From Candidatus Jorgensenbacteria bacterium GW2011_GWB1_50_10 (GTDB lineage Bacteria > Patescibacteriota > Minisyncoccia > UBA6257 > GWB1-50-10): a stretch of DNA of 46,804 bases. The notes under the pieces were generated by a model. The model was not told the origin of the DNA and did no database searches. It saw nothing but the letters and a program-made list of their open reading frames with translations. The stretch is from NCBI GenBank assembly GCA_001004105.1, contig LCQK01000003.1, forward strand, positions 1-46,804, in the 5' to 3' direction. This document shows, one piece after another, positions 14,283 through 43,833 of this stretch (positions are counted from its first letter, which is position 1; every line of letters begins with the position of its first letter). A program made the position numbers and the translations under genes.

Positions 14283-14831
14283 ATGGTTCGTCTTTTCATC
14301 GCCGTTCCGGTTCCTCAGAACATCAAAGAACAGGTTACCGGTCTTATAGCAGATTTGAAAAATGTCCAAGGTTTGCCGGAAAATATCCGCTTTGTACCCG
14401 AAGAGAACTGGCATTTTACTTTGGTATTTTTGGGTTATCAAGACGAATTGGTTAACCCCGCAATAAAAAAATCCATAGCCAACATATTGACGTCGGACGT
14501 CAATAATATTGAAATTCAGTTTGAAAAACTGACCTACGGGCCGCCGGGCCGGACGCCGCGGATGCTCTGGCTTACCGTGACCAAAGAAACTTCGGCAGCG
14601 ATGGATGAACTTAAAACTGCCTTAGAGAAAAATCTTGAAGAGGAGGGTGTCAGGTGGCGCAAAGAAAACCGGCCTTTTCAAGGACATTTAACGCTTGCGC
14701 GGTTTGAACCGATATCACCCATAGACCTGCCGAAAATAGATAAAAAAGTGGATTTCGGCTATTCAACCGAAGAAATCAACCTTATGAAATCCACCCTTAA
14801 AAGAACTGGCGCGGAATATGAAGTTTTATAG
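14283..14831 (+). CDS. thpR: RNA 2',3'-cyclic phosphodiesterase (2H family)
   Basis: MVRLFIAVPVPQNIK..., NWHFTLVFLG and FQGHLTLARF: two HxTL motifs. Confidence 0.88.
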   Translation: MVRLFIAVPVPQNIKEQVTGLIADLKNVQGLPENIRFVPEENWHFTLVFLGYQDELVNPAIKKSIANILTSDVNNIEIQFEKLTYGPPGRTPRMLWLTVTKETSAAMDELKTALEKNLEEEGVRWRKENRPFQGHLTLARFEPISPIDLPKIDKKVDFGYSTEEINLMKSTLKRTGAEYEVL

Positions 14832-14883
14832 ATGTTAGGAGGTCGGACTTCCCAAAATTGATTCTATTTGCTTAAATTAGAAA

Positions 14884-16146
14884 ATGCCGCGCAAAAATAA
14901 GCCGATTCTGAAATTATTTTACGTTTTTATCTTAGGCGTGGTTTTGGGCGCCGGAGGACTTTATGCCGGTTTCGTTTTTGACTTTTACGCCCTTCCGGTG
15001 AAATTCCGTCCGATCACCGATACTGAGAAAAAGGAATTATTGAATGCCGACTTCGGTCTTTTCTGGGATTCGCTCCAATCAATTAAAGACAATTATTTCA
15101 AGATCGAAGGTATCAAGGACGAAGATTTGCTCTACGGCGCGATTAAGGGCGTCGTGGGCGCCCTGGATGACCCGTATTCGGCTTTTTTCAACCCGAGCGA
15201 TGCTCAAAAATTCAACGAAGATATTCAGGGAAGTTTTGGCGGCATTGGGGCGGAAATCGGCATCCGCAATGACCAGCTCGTGGTTGTTGCGCCCTTGAAA
15301 GGCAATCCGGCGGAGGCGGCGGGACTCAAAGCCGGCGATAAAATCCTTAAAGTTGACGATGAATTCACCAACGATTTGACTGTAGAGGAAGCAGTGAAGA
15401 TAATTCGCGGCGAGCCCGGCACCGAAGTGACATTACTAATATTGCGGGACGGCTGGGATGAGGCGAAAGAATTTAAAATAACGCGGGCAATCGTCGTCGT
15501 GCCGACCCTGGATTGGGAAATGAAGCCGGGCGGCATCGCTTATTTCCATCTCTACAATTTCAACGCCAACGCTCCGGACCTTTTTTATCAGGGAGCCCTG
15601 GAAGTGCTTGTGAAGGGCGCGCGGGGAGTGGTCTTGGATTTGCGGAACAATCCCGGCGGCTACTTGGAGGTGGCGAGTAACATCTCCGGTTGGTTTCTTA
15701 ATCGGGGCGCGATAGTGGTGAGGGAACGCTTCCGCTCCGGCGAGGAAAATTTGATTTATGCGACTGGCCCCGCCGCCCTCGCCGAAGTGCCGACCGTGGT
15801 TTTGGTAAACGGCGGCTCGGCCTCCGCCTCCGAAATCGTGGCCGGCGCTCTCCGCGACGTCCGCGGGGTGAAGCTTGTGGGTGAGAAAACTTTCGGCAAA
15901 GGCACGGTTCAGGAAGTGCACGAGCTCACGGGCGGCTCCTCCATTAAGATATCTGTCGCCGAGTGGCTCACGCCCGAAGGCCACGAAATCAACGACAAGG
16001 GGCTCGCGCCGGATTACGAAGTTAAATCAAACGGCGAAGTGGAGGAGCCTGCGCAGGCAGGCGACCCCCAGCTTGATAAAGCTCTGGAAATTTTGCGCGA
16101 AGAAATCGAAAAATCTGGCGACCGGATCTTTGTCATCGGCTCGTAG
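14884..16146 (+). CDS. S41 family C-terminal processing peptidase
   Basis: PDZ region FGGIGAEIGIRNDQLVVVAPLKGNPAEAAGLKAGDKIL, catalytic region VVLVNGGSASASEIVAGALRD...VGEKTFGKGTVQ. Confidence 0.95.
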   Translation: MPRKNKPILKLFYVFILGVVLGAGGLYAGFVFDFYALPVKFRPITDTEKKELLNADFGLFWDSLQSIKDNYFKIEGIKDEDLLYGAIKGVVGALDDPYSAFFNPSDAQKFNEDIQGSFGGIGAEIGIRNDQLVVVAPLKGNPAEAAGLKAGDKILKVDDEFTNDLTVEEAVKIIRGEPGTEVTLLILRDGWDEAKEFKITRAIVVVPTLDWEMKPGGIAYFHLYNFNANAPDLFYQGALEVLVKGARGVVLDLRNNPGGYLEVASNISGWFLNRGAIVVRERFRSGEENLIYATGPAALAEVPTVVLVNGGSASASEIVAGALRDVRGVKLVGEKTFGKGTVQEVHELTGGSSIKISVAEWLTPEGHEINDKGLAPDYEVKSNGEVEEPAQAGDPQLDKALEILREEIEKSGDRIFVIGS

Positions 16147-16155
16147 CAATATTTT

Positions 16156-16206
16156 GGACATCCGATGTCCCAAATATTGACGTTAATGTTAGGACATCGG
16201 ATGTCC
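16156..16206. repeat. Palindromic hairpin element (family E, copy 1)
   Basis: GGACATCCGATGTCC-21 nt-GGACATCGGATGTCC; homologous to 29365-29414 when reverse-complemented. Confidence 0.7.
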
Positions 16207-16231: not shown

Positions 16232-16675
16232 ATGAAAGTAATTTTTCTCCAAGACATCAAAGGCATCGGTAAAAAGTACGACATCAAAGACGTGAGCGAT
16301 GGCTACGCTCGTAATTTTTTGTTGCCGAAAAAACTGGCCGAGGCGGCAACCGGCGCGGCGCTGAAGAGTGTGATGGAACTAAAATCAAAAATGGAAGCAG
16401 AACGCGGAAAGCTTGTTTCGGAACTGAAAGCGGAAGCGGAAAAAATTGGGGGCAGGAAAATTATTTTCAAAGTGAAGACCGGCGATAAGGGCGAGGTATT
16501 TGGTTCGGTCACGGCGCGCGATATCAAAGACGAATTGGAAAAATTAGGCGTTCGTCACGGCGTTGCTGTAATACCTAAACCAATAAAAACCCTTGGTGAA
16601 ACGAAAGTGGAAATTAATTTCGGTGAAGGCGTGAAAACCTCGGTAGACATTTTGGTGGAAAGCGACGAGAAATGA
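16232..16675 (+). CDS. rplI: 50S ribosomal protein L9
   Basis: [40 protein letters not shown]. Confidence 0.95.
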
Positions 16676-16716
16676 TGTCCTCAAAAAACGTCCATATGGA
16701 CGTTTTTTGAGGACAT
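16675..16716. terminator. 42-bp perfect palindrome, probable bidirectional terminator between convergent rplI and rpmA
   Basis: ATGTCCTCAAAAAACGTCCATATGGACGTTTTTTGAGGACAT is self-complementary and contains A6/T6 tracts; also a member of the CATATG palindrome family. Confidence 0.7.
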
Positions 16717-21309: not shown

Positions 21310-21731
21310 AGAATAGTTTGCAAAACGCCAAGAGGTGGCTGAAACAGGCGGAATATGATTTTGGAGAAGCCGAGAAACTTCTTCGCGGAAATGATTTTTC
21401 TTATGCCTGTTTTTTTGCCGAGCAGGCCGCCCAAAAATCGTTAAAAGCGTTTCTTTTTTGGCGAGGCAAACGGTTTGTCGCCATTCACTCGGTCGGCGCT
21501 CTTTTGGAAGAGGCGTTTCTTTTGGACCCCGCTTTCGGAGAATTGATCGGGAAAGGGAAAAAATTGGACCATTACTATCTCGCCTCTCGCTATCCCGACG
21601 CCCTGCCGGAACCCGCCATTCCTTCAGAATCATATGTCAAAGAAGATGCGGAAGGAGCCATAACGATCGCCGGGGAAATTTTAAACCGGTCGCGCGAAAT
21701 TATTGGAGGTGGCGGTTCGCGGGGTTTATAA
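21306..21731 (+). CDS. HEPN domain protein (HepT-like toxin)
   Basis: WLKQAEYDFGEAEKLLRGNDFSYACFFAEQAAQKSLKAFL...; overlaps the MNT ORF by 4 nt; candidate RX4H motif RFVAIH. Confidence 0.85.
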   Translation: MKNSLQNAKRWLKQAEYDFGEAEKLLRGNDFSYACFFAEQAAQKSLKAFLFWRGKRFVAIHSVGALLEEAFLLDPAFGELIGKGKKLDHYYLASRYPDALPEPAIPSESYVKEDAEGAITIAGEILNRSREIIGGGGSRGL

Positions 21732-21745
21732 TTATAACGCAAACC

Positions 21746-24679
21746 ATGATTTTCAAACCCAAAATAAGAAAAAAACTCCTGTTCGCAATCGTGATTTTAG
21801 GATTGGTTTTTGGGAATGTTTCGCTCGCCAATTACCTTTACTATGATGCGGGCACCGGCCGGTCAACGTTCAGTAATACAGTAGAAGTGCCGGGATTGTA
21901 TTCAAGCGGCAACGTCGGCATCGGGACGGCGAGTCCTGGGTATAAGTTGGATGTAAAAGGAATATCTGCGACGCGTTCAGCTAACAATGATAACCTCATT
22001 ACTGTGGCTGGGTACAACGGTACCGCAGGAGGCTATTTTGATGTCTACTACGACAACAATCTTAAAATCCATCTTAGCGCTGGACCCGCTTCCGGGGATA
22101 CTTATTTCCTCAATAGCAACGTCGGCATCGGGACGACGGGGCCGGGGGCGAAACTAGATGTGGCTGGTACAACGCGTTCTCAAAGATACGATTTATCCAA
22201 TTCCGGTTCAATGGATAATACTTGGACTGCTGGTGGAGTTGGTTCATGGAGATTGATTTTGCCCTCCGCCACAAATCCTGAAGGATTCGGAGCCGGGGCT
22301 GGTGGGTTTGGAATTTATAACAACACAGATCTTACCTATCACCTGATTTTTGGCAATAATGGAACCCAGACGTTTGGCGGCTCTACATATTTTCCCGGGA
22401 GCGGTATCTGGAATTCTTCCGGCAACGTCGGCATCGGGACGACGGGGCCGAATGATAAATTGTCTGTCAGCGGGTCAATTGGTATAGAAGGGGGCACGAT
22501 AAACGCGTATAACGACGCCACTTTATACGTTACAGCAAATAACAACAACGACTGGGGATTGGTTGTAAATAAATATAATGCAGGATCAACCGAGTACGGC
22601 GTTGATATAAGAATGGCGGATACCGCATCTTACGCATTAAGAGTTTTGGGGAGCGGCTCTGAAAAATTCAGGGTGGACGGCGCTGGAAACTTATTCATAA
22701 CAGGCGGAGCAAGGGCCGAATTGGGCTTGCCTGATCAATGGTATAGTAGACGCAACATCACCACCGATACCGCCTATTGGACCGGTTCGCAGGGGTGGGG
22801 CTATATGGATATGAACAGTACGCTCCCGGAATATGGCTCAACCTTCTTTGATATATGGGGCACGGGGATGCCCGGAAACCCTTTTGGTGCTGGCTATTCC
22901 CACTTTCAAGGGCTTCAGGCATACCATTACTGGAACGGCACAACCGGTCATGGTTCTCAACTTGTCTTTGACAATGCCGGGTATGGAGGAACCGCGCCGC
23001 GTATGTATATGAGGAGCATCTGGGGCGGCGGCTGGGGCGGATGGGTTGGAATCTGCATGGCCAATGGCACGAATTGTCCGGCCGCCGGCGATACCACTCC
23101 TGATACGATAGCCGACGACGGGGTGATTACCACGGGCGAGATGGTCTCTACAGTGATGGTGGAGGGCGAGAACATCTCGCTTCTTACCAACAACTCCGGC
23201 TACATCACCGACGGCAACACGGGCTGGGATAATTCCTACGGGTATATCACCCCTTCCGGCAATGTAGCAACGGCGGATAAAGTAAATGGTTATAGTTCTG
23301 GTCCTGATAATTCTCATCCGGGTACGGGAATGCGGCCCTTCTATTCATGGGCCCTCGGCTGTGCTTACAACGGCTCTGGCGGATGCTATTCCAATGGTAT
23401 AAGCGTTGGTTCTCATCCGAGTGACCAAGCTTACGGATTTCAAATAGTGCAAAACATGTGGGATGACAGATTGTACTTCAGAAGATACAACGGGGGATGG
23501 CAGGACTGGTTTACGGTGATAGATTCCGGTACCATCGGCTCCCAGTCGGTGAATTATGCCGCAAGCGCCGGGAGCGTGGCTTGGGGAAATGTTACAGGCA
23601 GGCAAACTTGGCTGACCGCATCTAATTTAATTGAGGAATTAAGTAATTTTAATTCTTCTAGACCAAGCGGTTTTTATCAGGGTTACAACGCGTCAAACGC
23701 CCCCGGTTCTTCTTGGTACAACATGCTTAACGTGCGCCATTCCAATACCGGCAACGACCACGGATTCCAAATTGCCGCAAGTTACTATGATGAAAATGTC
23801 TGGACTAGAACATATCAAGGCGGTTCAGGAGCAGACAACGGAACCTTTACGCCTTGGAAAAAATTGGTTCGAGAAGAAAGTGGAGGCGGTGTTATAGTCG
23901 GCACAGGTGGTACCTCATCGAACTCCCGCACCCTCACAATCCTGAATTCTGGATCCGGTCAAGTCAACTTCGGTCAGTATCCCGGCAATTGGACGTCGGC
24001 TTTGCAGATTCAATCAAGCGACGCCACTCCAAGATTTTTGTGGATGGCCCCATTAGACGCAAATTCTTCCGCAAATGCGCGAATTGTTGCTGGGGGTACC
24101 AATCTTGACATTTATGTTGGCGCTAGTGCAGGTAGTGGAGGTAGTTGGTCCGCGACATTCAACTCTAGCGGGAAAATCGACGTTAGCACTGTTGACCCCG
24201 TCTATACGATCGGCGGCACCCGTTACGCAACTTATATGGCCGGCATGACCGGCGTCAAAGAAGAAACCACCGGCGTCATCAACTTATTGACGTCCGACGT
24301 CAATATATTAAAATATGTTATTGATTTTAATAAAACCGAGGTCGGTTCAGATTTGTGGTTGTTTGCTCAAGCCATTAACGTTGACGGCCGCTCGTATATC
24401 GCCGAAGACGGTAAAGTTTACCGCACCACCGCCGAAGAATTGTTTAACAATTTTAGTGTGCTCCTCACGCCGAATTTTGCCGGCAACGTTTGGTACGAAA
24501 AAGACGTTGAAAACCGCAGGATAACGATTCTCGCCATACCAGATACTAAATACCAGATACTAGATACTAATTACGAAGTTTCCTATCGCTTAACCGCCCC
24601 CCGTTTCGACTGGAAATATTGGACCAACTACTCCAACTCAAACCAAGAGGGACTCAATTTGGATAAATCGTTAAGATGA
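21746..24679 (+). CDS. Secreted adhesin-like protein with VGIGTT repeats
   Basis: True start likely the ATG at 21746 (MIFKPKIRKKLLFAIVILGLVFGNVSLANY signal peptide), in frame with the supplied 21458 ORF; shares 21-nt repeats with 18400..20589. Confidence 0.8.
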   Translation: MIFKPKIRKKLLFAIVILGLVFGNVSLANYLYYDAGTGRSTFSNTVEVPGLYSSGNVGIGTASPGYKLDVKGISATRSANNDNLITVAGYNGTAGGYFDVYYDNNLKIHLSAGPASGDTYFLNSNVGIGTTGPGAKLDVAGTTRSQRYDLSNSGSMDNTWTAGGVGSWRLILPSATNPEGFGAGAGGFGIYNNTDLTYHLIFGNNGTQTFGGSTYFPGSGIWNSSGNVGIGTTGPNDKLSVSGSIGIEGGTINAYNDATLYVTANNNNDWGLVVNKYNAGSTEYGVDIRMADTASYALRVLGSGSEKFRVDGAGNLFITGGARAELGLPDQWYSRRNITTDTAYWTGSQGWGYMDMNSTLPEYGSTFFDIWGTGMPGNPFGAGYSHFQGLQAYHYWNGTTGHGSQLVFDNAGYGGTAPRMYMRSIWGGGWGGWVGICMANGTNCPAAGDTTPDTIADDGVITTGEMVSTVMVEGENISLLTNNSGYITDGNTGWDNSYGYITPSGNVATADKVNGYSSGPDNSHPGTGMRPFYSWALGCAYNGSGGCYSNGISVGSHPSDQAYGFQIVQNMWDDRLYFRRYNGGWQDWFTVIDSGTIGSQSVNYAASAGSVAWGNVTGRQTWLTASNLIEELSNFNSSRPSGFYQGYNASNAPGSSWYNMLNVRHSNTGNDHGFQIAASYYDENVWTRTYQGGSGADNGTFTPWKKLVREESGGGVIVGTGGTSSNSRTLTILNSGSGQVNFGQYPGNWTSALQIQSSDATPRFLWMAPLDANSSANARIVAGGTNLDIYVGASAGSGGSWSATFNSSGKIDVSTVDPVYTIGGTRYATYMAGMTGVKEETTGVINLLTSDVNILKYVIDFNKTEVGSDLWLFAQAINVDGRSYIAEDGKVYRTTAEELFNNFSVLLTPNFAGNVWYEKDVENRRITILAIPDTKYQILDTNYEVSYRLTAPRFDWKYWTNYSNSNQEGLNLDKSLR

Positions 24680-25724: not shown

Positions 25725-25757
25725 TAAATATAGTGAGATCGAACCTCACTATATTTA
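25725..25757. terminator. Strong hairpin overlapping the RAYT stop codon
   Basis: TAAATATAGTGAG-ATCGAAC-CTCACTATATTTA, 13-bp perfect stem. Confidence 0.7.
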
Positions 25758-26486
25758 TTCGAGCGTAATATTTTTAATTTCTTCAAGGTCCATCTCTTTC
25801 AGCCACTTAATCGTGTCTTTCTTGTATTGCTCCGGCCCGCCGAAAAACTCTGTCAAAAATTCTCTCTGCGTCACTGACGGAAAATTCCTTTTCCCGATGT
25901 AGTCGAGATAACTGCTCCACCGATATTTTTCTAAGAATTTCCCCGCTCCCTTCCAATCTATGGTCTTCGCAAGACCATAGTTGTTGCGGCCATAGTTCCG
26001 CCACTCCGGCATAACCAGATCCAACGGATTTAGGTGGATATAGTAAGGAAGATGAATAAAGTGTGATTCTTCGGTAACAGGAATCAACTTATAGCGTCCC
26101 TGAAATAACGCCCCGCTCCGTTTATATCTTTCGTTGAAATATTTTGCGTAACCCATGTTTAATTTTTTGATGAATTTTGTTATCCCGTCATCAGATTTAG
26201 GCTTTATTAGTAGGTGATAGTGGTTTGGCATTAGACAGAAAGCCAGAATTTCAACCAGCAACTTTCTCGGTTTTCTCTCCCCAGCAATATATGGTCTTGC
26301 GATGTCCATAGATTGCTTTTGGCGATTGAAGTAATAAGTGTTGTTATTTGGCGGTTCGAGGTCGTTAAATTCAAAGAGATTATGAACAAACCTGAAGTAA
26401 TCTCTATCGTCCATGAAGATTTTTCTTTTATCAACACCGCGGTTTAGAACGTGATATACATTTCCAGCAACGATTTTTTCTCTCAT
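25755..26486 (-). CDS. REP-associated tyrosine transposase (RAYT, Y1/HUH family)
   Basis: NVYHVLNRGVDKRKIFMDDRDYFRFV...LAFCLMPNHYHLLIKP...: HUH-type HYH motif and family layout. Confidence 0.92.
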   Translation of the reverse strand: MREKIVAGNVYHVLNRGVDKRKIFMDDRDYFRFVHNLFEFNDLEPPNNNTYYFNRQKQSMDIARPYIAGERKPRKLLVEILAFCLMPNHYHLLIKPKSDDGITKFIKKLNMGYAKYFNERYKRSGALFQGRYKLIPVTEESHFIHLPYYIHLNPLDLVMPEWRNYGRNNYGLAKTIDWKGAGKFLEKYRWSSYLDYIGKRNFPSVTQREFLTEFFGGPEQYKKDTIKWLKEMDLEEIKNITLE

Positions 26487-26586
26487 ACAATAATTGTAAT
26501 ATATGGTCTTGCGATGTCCATAGATTGGTAATCCACGGGGAGGGGTTTGGTATAATTTTAGAAAGACCTAGAAGGCGATTAAGACA

Positions 26587-29342: not shown

Positions 29343-29364
29343 AAGCGAACCGTCGCCAATTTAA

Positions 29365-29414
29365 GGAAGTCCGACCTCCTACATTCCCGTCAATATTTAG
29401 GAGGTCGGACTTCC
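29365..29414. terminator. Palindromic hairpin element (family E, copy 2), probable terminator
   Basis: GGAAGTCCGACCTCC-20 nt-GGAGGTCGGACTTCC, followed by CTGTTTTTT. Confidence 0.75.
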
Positions 29415-29446
29415 TGTTTTTTCTATTATTTTGCTATCATAAAAGA

Positions 29447-37900: not shown

Positions 37901-37948
37901 TATTCTCGCTGCGCTTGCCGATAACCATAACTCCCATAACTTCATGTT

Positions 37949-37988
37949 TCCTCAATAACCCATCACATATGCGTAAAGTTATTGAGGA
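37949..37988. repeat. CATATG-family palindrome, copy P2
   Basis: TCCTCAATAACCCATCACATATGCGTAAAGTTATTGAGGA, 11-bp perfect arms. Confidence 0.7.
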
Positions 37989-38013
37989 CAAAGACTGAAC
38001 TTTAAACTTAACT

Positions 38014-38541
38014 ATGGCTAAAACTTCAAAAGATGCCCGACGCCACATAAGAGAATGGAGCAAATTTTTTGCTGACGGGAAAGCCGTTGCTAAAAGTGCA
38101 GTAGAAGAGTTTATAAAAAGTTATAAGAAACAAAAGTATTTAAGACAATCTCTTGACCGTTTAATGGAAAGGGGACTTGTAATCCCAAAAGACAACGAAT
38201 TCGTTCCTATTGCGCGCGGCGGTGAATTTTTTAAACAAAAAATCGAGCCAAAAAACAAAAAAGCAACTAAGCTTCCTTGGCGGGGAAAATGGTATTTTGT
38301 TATGTTTGATGTTCCGGTTATTGCGGACAGTAAACGTCATATGCTTAGAAATCTGTTGCGGAGATCAATGTTTTACCCAATTCAGAAAAGCGTGTGGGTA
38401 AGCCCTCTGCAGTTGACGAAAAAATTTTGGAAAGATTTAGTCAATAATGATTTAGACAAGTATTGTAAAGTTTTAAGCACGAACATTTTGGAGGGCGACC
38501 GAGAGTTGAAAGAATATTTTAAGCATTTTGTTGAGTTTTAG
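38014..38541 (+). CDS. PaaX-like regulator with Cas2-like ferredoxin-fold domain
   Basis: Helical/wHTH-like N-terminus; GKWYFVMFDVPVIADSKRHMLRNLLRRSMFYPIQKSVWVSPL matches the PaaX central/Cas2-like domain pattern. Confidence 0.75.
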   Translation: MAKTSKDARRHIREWSKFFADGKAVAKSAVEEFIKSYKKQKYLRQSLDRLMERGLVIPKDNEFVPIARGGEFFKQKIEPKNKKATKLPWRGKWYFVMFDVPVIADSKRHMLRNLLRRSMFYPIQKSVWVSPLQLTKKFWKDLVNNDLDKYCKVLSTNILEGDRELKEYFKHFVEF

Positions 38542-38592
38542 CCACCCGTTAAGTTTTAGTCACGCTAGACCAAACAATCAAATTAAATGGTT

Positions 38593-38632
38593 TCCTCAAA
38601 GATAAATCCCATATGCGTAAATCTTTTGAGGA
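38593..38632. repeat. CATATG-family palindrome, copy P3
   Basis: TCCTCAAAGATAAATCCCATATGCGTAAATCTTTTGAGGA. Confidence 0.7.
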
Positions 38633-38749
38633 CTTATCTTTTAAGTGGGTGTGGATAAGTTTTGTTGTAAAAACCCCAAAATTGATTTAGAATTAGATTA
38701 ATTAAAGAACTCCTCTGGGTAATTTGCCGGGCTTTGTACTCTTTTCTCT

Positions 38750-43725: not shown

Positions 43726-43741
43726 CCCGGAAAAATCAGTG

Positions 43742-43785
43742 TCCTCAATAATCTTACGCATATGCGTAAGGTTATTGAGGACAGG
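43742..43785. repeat. CATATG-family palindrome, copy P4
   Basis: TGTCCTCAATAATCTTACGCATATGCGTAAGGTTATTGAGGACA, self-complementary except one pair. Confidence 0.75.
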
Positions 43786-43833
43786 GATTGTAATTGTAAA
43801 ACAAGGGTCAGTTGTGGTATCTTGACTTTGGAA

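Follow-up and report, generated by a model that had tools for sequence, protein, structure and literature searches.

Most knowledge of repetitive extragenic palindromic (REP) sequences and the REP-associated tyrosine transposases (RAYTs) comes from Proteobacteria, Cyanobacteria and a small number of other phyla. REP sequences are marked by GTAG or GTGG (GT[AG]G) at the foot of the palindrome and commonly occur in tens to hundreds of copies per genome. In subclass 2.4 of the TnpAREP proteins, the stretch of the transposase gene that separates HuH from Y contains palindromes (PMC6006769). Two other kinds of small repeat come close: the Rickettsia palindromic elements (RPEs), which sit in frame within genes, and the CGTC repeats, which have CGTC at one end, an 8-9 bp stem, a 4-5 nt loop and a CCA tail, and no link to a transposase (both in PMC3733652). 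Here we describe a family of hairpins of about 50 bp from Candidatus Jorgensenbacteria bacterium GW2011_GWB1_50_10, starting from two copies in a stretch of 46,804 nucleotides (the window; positions 1 to 46,804 of contig LCQK01000003.1). The element, which is present in genomes of ultra-small Parcubacteria, closely resembles the REP palindromes around RAYT genes; we regard it as most probably a miniature form of mobile DNA rather than a terminator or regulatory RNA.

Results

All ten contigs of the genome (G000; 675 kb, Parcubacteria type; the window is contig 3) were read for copies of the hairpin, which number no fewer than five doublets plus a solo arm (Table 1). A doublet consists of two inverted 15-nt arms around a conserved, AT-rich linker of 20-23 nt, which mostly ends in CGTCAATATTTG or a close variant. 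A single arm is in turn nearly palindromic (7+1+7 nt, pattern GGAnnTCsGAnnTCC), and its outer frame GGA..T.s.A..TCC is constant and dyad-symmetric; the arm words of the family are given as AATATTTGGGANNTCSGANNTCC and AATATTTGGGACATCGGATGTCC. An earlier note, made from the letters of the window alone, had reported two hairpins whose stems differ at four base pairs on each side with every difference compensated. Both hairpins are present in the DNA where and as it described them, and comparison of copy 2 with the reverse complement of copy 1 recovers the four arm differences per side, all compensated; they amount to two palindromic positions, because each arm is itself a near-palindrome. The arms of copy 1 are perfect palindromes. 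Those of copy 2 depart from symmetry (A opposite C, or G opposite T), although one arm complements the other exactly. Folded as single-stranded DNA, both copies beat their shuffled versions (z about -7.5 to -8). Inverted repeats of such size with a gap of 15-25 nt number eight in the genome, five of them belonging to the hairpin family, and none was found in each of eight Markov-1 random genomes; the copies are not a product of chance.

The family extends well beyond this genome. In a survey of 244 genomes of the order, with the reversed pattern as control, the arm plus flank AATRTTTGGGANNTYSRANNTCC was found at 23 places in 13 of the genomes (reversed control, 0) and the bare arm GGANNTCSGANNTCC at 358 sites, versus 22 for the control; control sites never exceeded one per genome, whereas arm sites reached 38 in a single genome (G067). 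The stems of the relatives differ but are compensated (GGACATC, GGAGGTC, GGACTTC, GGATGTC, GGAAGTC and GGATTTC, in most cases accompanied by the complement that matches). A scan for the flank pattern in one genome per GTDB species gave 25 stretches, about eight of which are expected at random by our estimate, mostly from Jorgensen-, Nealson-, Wolfe-, Harrison-, Lipton- and Moranbacteria or from unnamed metagenome-assembled genomes; several stretches from outside the Parcubacteria, Draconibacterium and Woesearchaeota among them, look like chance given that expectation and were set aside.

Covariation of the stems was assessed by surveying patterns and by counting pairs against shuffled and slid controls, on an alignment of 15 doublets taken from this genome and others. 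The arms in it derive in part from a search pattern in which the invariant positions of one arm are fixed. In the helix formed between the two arms, 97.8% of cells are paired, a percentage inflated by the choice of doublets with a visible partner arm, and two-sided changes occur at 7 of the 15 pairs. These changes fill 34 cells, versus a shuffle mean of 11.6, and fall to 0-1 when the partner is slid by 1-3 columns. Pairing within the arms, as two small hairpins, reaches 92.4% with 25 two-sided cells. Both folds are supported, and the arm-to-arm helix fits better because arms without self-symmetry are still matched by their partner (G000 b and e, G011, G223 a and c, and G239). CGTC adjoins the arm in 7 of the 15 doublets; the conserved flank is (CGTC)AATATTTG. 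Had there been just the two hairpins of the earlier note, with no covariation in a larger alignment, its structural reading would have been refuted; more copies were found, and their changes are compensated.

Three of the five doublets of the genome lie in frame within open reading frames, those of comF, pgk and ligA, which were named from protein sequence and alignment with kin. In that alignment ComF exceeds its relatives by about 23 residues at the site of the element, equal to the 69 nt of a three-arm element. At least 11 of 28 copies in the other genomes are within long open frames, with the Pfam names threonyl-tRNA synthetase (ThrRS), asparagine synthase (AsnB), MurD-type ligase, methionyl-tRNA formyltransferase (Fmt), glycerate kinase (DUF4147/MOFRL) and O-antigen ligases. 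Aligned with solved structures, AsnB and ThrRS have about 20 extra residues at the element; the extra length in ComF, AsnB and ThrRS is 19-23 residues. The alignment of Fmt stops at the element. From these alignments, ComF, ThrRS and AsnB appear as clear in-frame insertions, whereas the change of length in pgk and ligA is small or ambiguous, the loop at the element in ligA varying among relatives to the point that insertion is not demonstrable there. A second, shorter insert in ThrRS, with SPTSQK, and a second stretch in the glycerate kinase, MGTSDVPNINRNNFRTSDVQ, each resemble a further member of the family.

The arms recur at transposase genes. Y1_Tnp genes occur in 70 of the 244 genomes, and at least three arm sites were counted in 21 of these 70, versus 9 of the 174 negative genomes (Fisher p=6e-7, uncorrected for kinship among the genomes). 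The RAYT loci, 274 kb in all, contain the arm word 26 times, a density about 45-fold above the mean of the order. The density of short perfect palindromes at RAYT-type loci is 2.96/kb up to 250 bp from the gene, 0.95/kb within the gene itself and 0.36/kb at distances above 500 bp. Seven IS200-type loci, which were kept apart from these counts, are likewise flanked by hairpins, as expected for the IS200 family. Among 64 RAYT genes with a recognisable HUH motif, for which about 0.04 palindromes are expected per 110-nt window, 34 have an upstream palindrome (median centre -32) and 30 have one in the coding sequence ahead of HUH, at a median distance of 74 nt from the motif; in 41 a palindrome follows the stop codon (median +24). 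Two or more palindromes are present in 35 genes, with a common core in 32 of the 35, and the usual design is CAATCTTACGAGGTT-s-AACCTCGTAAGATTG. The RAYT palindrome of locus L204 in G232, GGACATCsGATGTCC, is identical to the arm of copy 1; those of G075, G167, G175 and G067 (GGAAGTCsGACTTCC) are equal or close to stems of the family, and in G209 the RAYT palindrome TAATATAAGGACATtcgATGTCCTTAGATTA and the doublet arm of the same genome, CAATATAAGGACATCCGATGTCCTTATATTA, are nearly equal. A RAYT gene flanked by the palindrome of its own genome's elements was found in G034, G067, G075, G167, G175, G209, G223 and G232, and not in the genome studied here.

At the RAYT loci L078-L102, L152-L160 and L196-L252, the RAYT-type genes have their own perfect palindrome at fixed places, with gene-specific stems. 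In G034 (L051, L058, L063, L067, L070, L073 and L074), AAAAAGGAAGGAGGTCGGACCTCCTTCCTTTTT palindromes stand on both sides of the RAYT gene, often after stop codons, several of them directly followed by GTGGATAAC, a DnaA-box-like word. The RAYT gene of L160 (G239) lies amid about ten long palindromes of GATTTCGGAAACC-type words, some with CAATATTTG flanks.

The window itself holds a RAYT-type gene, the only Y1_Tnp match of the genome, whose product has the HUH motif MPNHYHLL and the tyrosine motif YAKYFN. Two further palindromes of the window (TATTGACGTCsGACGTCAATA-like; last rows of Table 1) have a core in common with the RAYT palindromes of G215 (L201).

Table 1 Position of the hairpin family and of the RAYT-type gene with its palindromes (positions in the window unless preceded by a contig handle)
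Feature	Position	Strand	Remarks
Doublet, copy 1	16156..16206	-	51 bp; arms GGACATCCGATGTCC / GGACATCGGATGTCC, 21-nt linker TAACATTAACGTCAATATTTG; intergenic, between an S41 peptidase gene (14884-16146) and rplI (16232-16675)
Doublet, copy 2	29364..29415	+	50 bp plus one flanking pair; arms GGAAGTCCGACCTCC / GGAGGTCGGACTTCC, 20-nt linker TACATTCCCGTCAATATTTA; intergenic
Solo arm GGAGGTCGGACTTCC	14838..14852	+	Intergenic; flanks TTA and CAAAATTG, doublet-like
Further doublet	C1:110171-110223		Third arm extends to 110239
Further doublet	C1:121682-121732		
Further doublet	C2:80557-80607		Within pgk
RAYT-type Y1/HUH transposase-like gene	25755..26486	-	243 aa; Pfam Y1_Tnp E=2e-11, above cut-off
RAYT palindrome CAATCTATGGACATCGCAAGACCATATATT, upstream copy	26498..26527	-	-11 to -40
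RAYT palindrome, coding copy upstream of HUH	26285..26315	-	About +172 to +202
RAYT palindrome, second coding copy CAATCTATGGTCTTCGCAAGACCATAGTTG	25954..25983	+	Perfect version about +505 to +527
Related palindrome ATATTGACGTCGGACGTCAATAA	14484..14506	+	Within ORF 14283-14831
Related palindrome TTATTGACGTCCGACGTCAATAT	24284..24306	+	Within ORF 21458-24679

Other palindromes are also present in the genome. Perfect palindromes with CCATATGG, GGTGGTATAC and AACATTCTT centres were set aside by eye, as they have no loop and no shared flank. A second family of palindromes, centred on a CATATG-type motif and ending in CCTCAA/TTGAGG, lies in the window at 37947-37990, 38591-38634, 43734-43789 and 16675-16716, and two of its copies flank a small gene (38014-38541) with a putative PaaX/Cas2-like product; many perfect palindromes with a similar centre are found elsewhere in the genome. 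Contigs C1 and C2 of G000 have more families of loop-free perfect palindromes, of the CAGGTGGTATACTTAAGTATACCACCTG, AACATTCTTAAGAATGTT, TTATTCGCGCGAATAA and CGTCATACCACC types.

Discussion

The hairpin family has much in common with REP sequences and their doublets, the REPINs: inverted palindromic arms with a spacer, predicted to form one single-stranded DNA hairpin, arms of the same kind beside tyrosine transposase genes, and arms that keep their palindromy while drifting (Nunvar 2010, PMC2817692). Unlike REPINs, the element has (CGTC)AATATTTG as its flank in place of a GTAG/GTGG head, its arms vary while the flank on the spacer side is conserved, three of its five doublets are intragenic, the RAYT gene of this genome carries another palindrome, and its copies are few (about five doublets and a solo arm here, up to 38 arm sites in G067). 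Because the GTAG head and the high copy number are absent, we would not class it as a REP, strictly speaking. The earlier note had left a choice between selection on a folded nucleic acid and a mobile palindrome recognised by structure. The second is favoured because the stems are compensated, the copies are scattered over the genome and the order, some are inserted in frame and the arms are shared with RAYT palindromes, although recognition by structure is conjectural. We consider it probable that the element is a REPIN-like, non-autonomous mobile palindrome spread by a RAYT-type transposase. The multiple copies, compensated stems, conserved flank, in-frame genic copies, shared arm words and enrichment at RAYT genes are direct observations; RAYT-driven movement, recognition of hairpin plus flank and a single-stranded route are what we infer. 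The element would move as single-stranded DNA through a RAYT-type (Y1, HUH-tyrosine) transposase, which would read the conserved flank adjoining the hairpin and tolerate many stem sequences as long as they are paired. Such a combination would yield a constant spacer beside stems that drift with compensation, and insertions would persist between genes, or within them if in frame and in tolerant loops.

Several results weigh against this reading. The copy number in the genome is low, about six, and neither a target duplication nor a pair of empty and filled strains was found. The RAYT-type protein of the window scores 40 bits against the REP transposase family NF047646 of NCBIfam, with a cut-off of 80, and by this comparison would be a relative of the family, no confirmed member. 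The palindrome of its gene differs (CTATGGACATCGCAAGACCATA) and, in a search of the whole genome, had no copies away from the gene; because the sole RAYT carries another palindrome, the hairpin family is left with no matching RAYT in the assembly. Among the relatives, G100 (22 sites) and G002 (9) are rich in arms and have no Y1_Tnp gene, in assemblies that are incomplete. The association across genomes is uncorrected for kinship, and the choice of doublets by their partner arm, mentioned above, inflates the pairing between arms. Finally, pgk shows a net gain of only 4 residues in alignment with kin for an element that spans 17, so its copy is no clean insertion and possibly reflects replacement of the local sequence or partial birth from it.

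The main rival explanation is that these are mobile palindromes of the RPE type, spread by an agent other than RAYTs, with the likeness to RAYT palindromes due to convergence of two hairpin families. The resemblance in habit is considerable, since RPEs and CGTC repeats share with our element the in-frame copies in housekeeping genes, the small host-dependent bacteria, the doublets and, in about half of the cases, CGTC by the arm, which is the tag of repeats that have no transposase partner (PMC3733652); some carrier genomes also lack Y1_Tnp. This likeness is one of habit and description, and the structure departs from it: in place of the 8-9 bp stem and 4-5 nt loop of CGTC repeats, the element has 7-bp arm stems with a 1-nt centre, or a 15-bp doublet stem. 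What makes an RPE-type agent unlikely in our judgement is the connection to RAYT genes, at which the arms are enriched: the same arm words stand at fixed places of these genes in G232, G075, G167, G175 and G067, with a near match in G209, and the carriers are enriched in Y1_Tnp genes.

A mutational product without mobility, in which template switching (quasi-palindrome correction) would hold the inverted arms identical, is far less probable. It would account for an identity between arms that is greater than the symmetry within them, for the small gain in pgk, as if part of the element were born from local sequence, and for the many other perfect palindromes of the genome, but it does not explain why one linker recurs at unrelated sites and in unrelated genera, or why ComF, AsnB and ThrRS have additional residues; template switching may, on the other hand, act on the elements after insertion. 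We give slightly less credence still to intrinsic terminators or structured untranslated RNA under selection at the RNA level. Both doublets of the window lie intergenically between same-strand genes, and copy 2 is followed by TGTTTTTTC, a possible terminator that satisfies the usual definition of a GC-rich stem with a T-run; copy 2 was also scored as terminator-like and may have such a function in addition. Copy 1 and the solo arm lack a T-run and fail this definition, the arm-to-arm stems are Watson-Crick paired with very few G-U pairs, and the intragenic share of the copies, here and in the other genomes, does not suit such a role. Least plausible are paired operators of a dimeric DNA-binding protein, each arm being a 15-bp palindromic site with a constant, dyad-symmetric frame, because the core bases vary among copies of one genome, departures from dyad symmetry in one arm are mirrored in its partner, and copies within housekeeping coding sequences make regulation unlikely.

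Returning to spread by a RAYT-type transposase, a further and more speculative proposal, which we hold only tentatively and think rather doubtful, is that RAYT and palindrome are written into one another in Parcubacteria. The hairpin at a fixed coding place upstream of HUH would mean that a change of the hairpin alters the enzyme, and such hairpins would spread recognised by structure and flexible in sequence, entering essential genes in frame. As in TnpAREP subclass 2.4, the transposase gene holds in-frame copies of its own palindrome, although in Parcubacteria the coding palindrome favours a place about 74 nt upstream of HuH (PMC6006769). If true, this would be a mobile palindrome system tolerated by proteins, with a nearly free stem sequence. 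The text on that subclass has no mention of Parcubacteria, the candidate phyla radiation (CPR) or candidate phyla (PMC6006769), and no description of REP or RAYT from Patescibacteria, Parcubacteria or CPR was found in the literature searched, which is weak evidence given its partial coverage of journals. A widespread version of the REP/RAYT system in the streamlined, symbiotic Parcubacteria would provide a natural set of substrates on which to ask whether it is the shape of a hairpin or its sequence that these transposases read, and the elements would explain one type of unusual insert in CPR housekeeping proteins, which might otherwise be mistaken for a functional domain.
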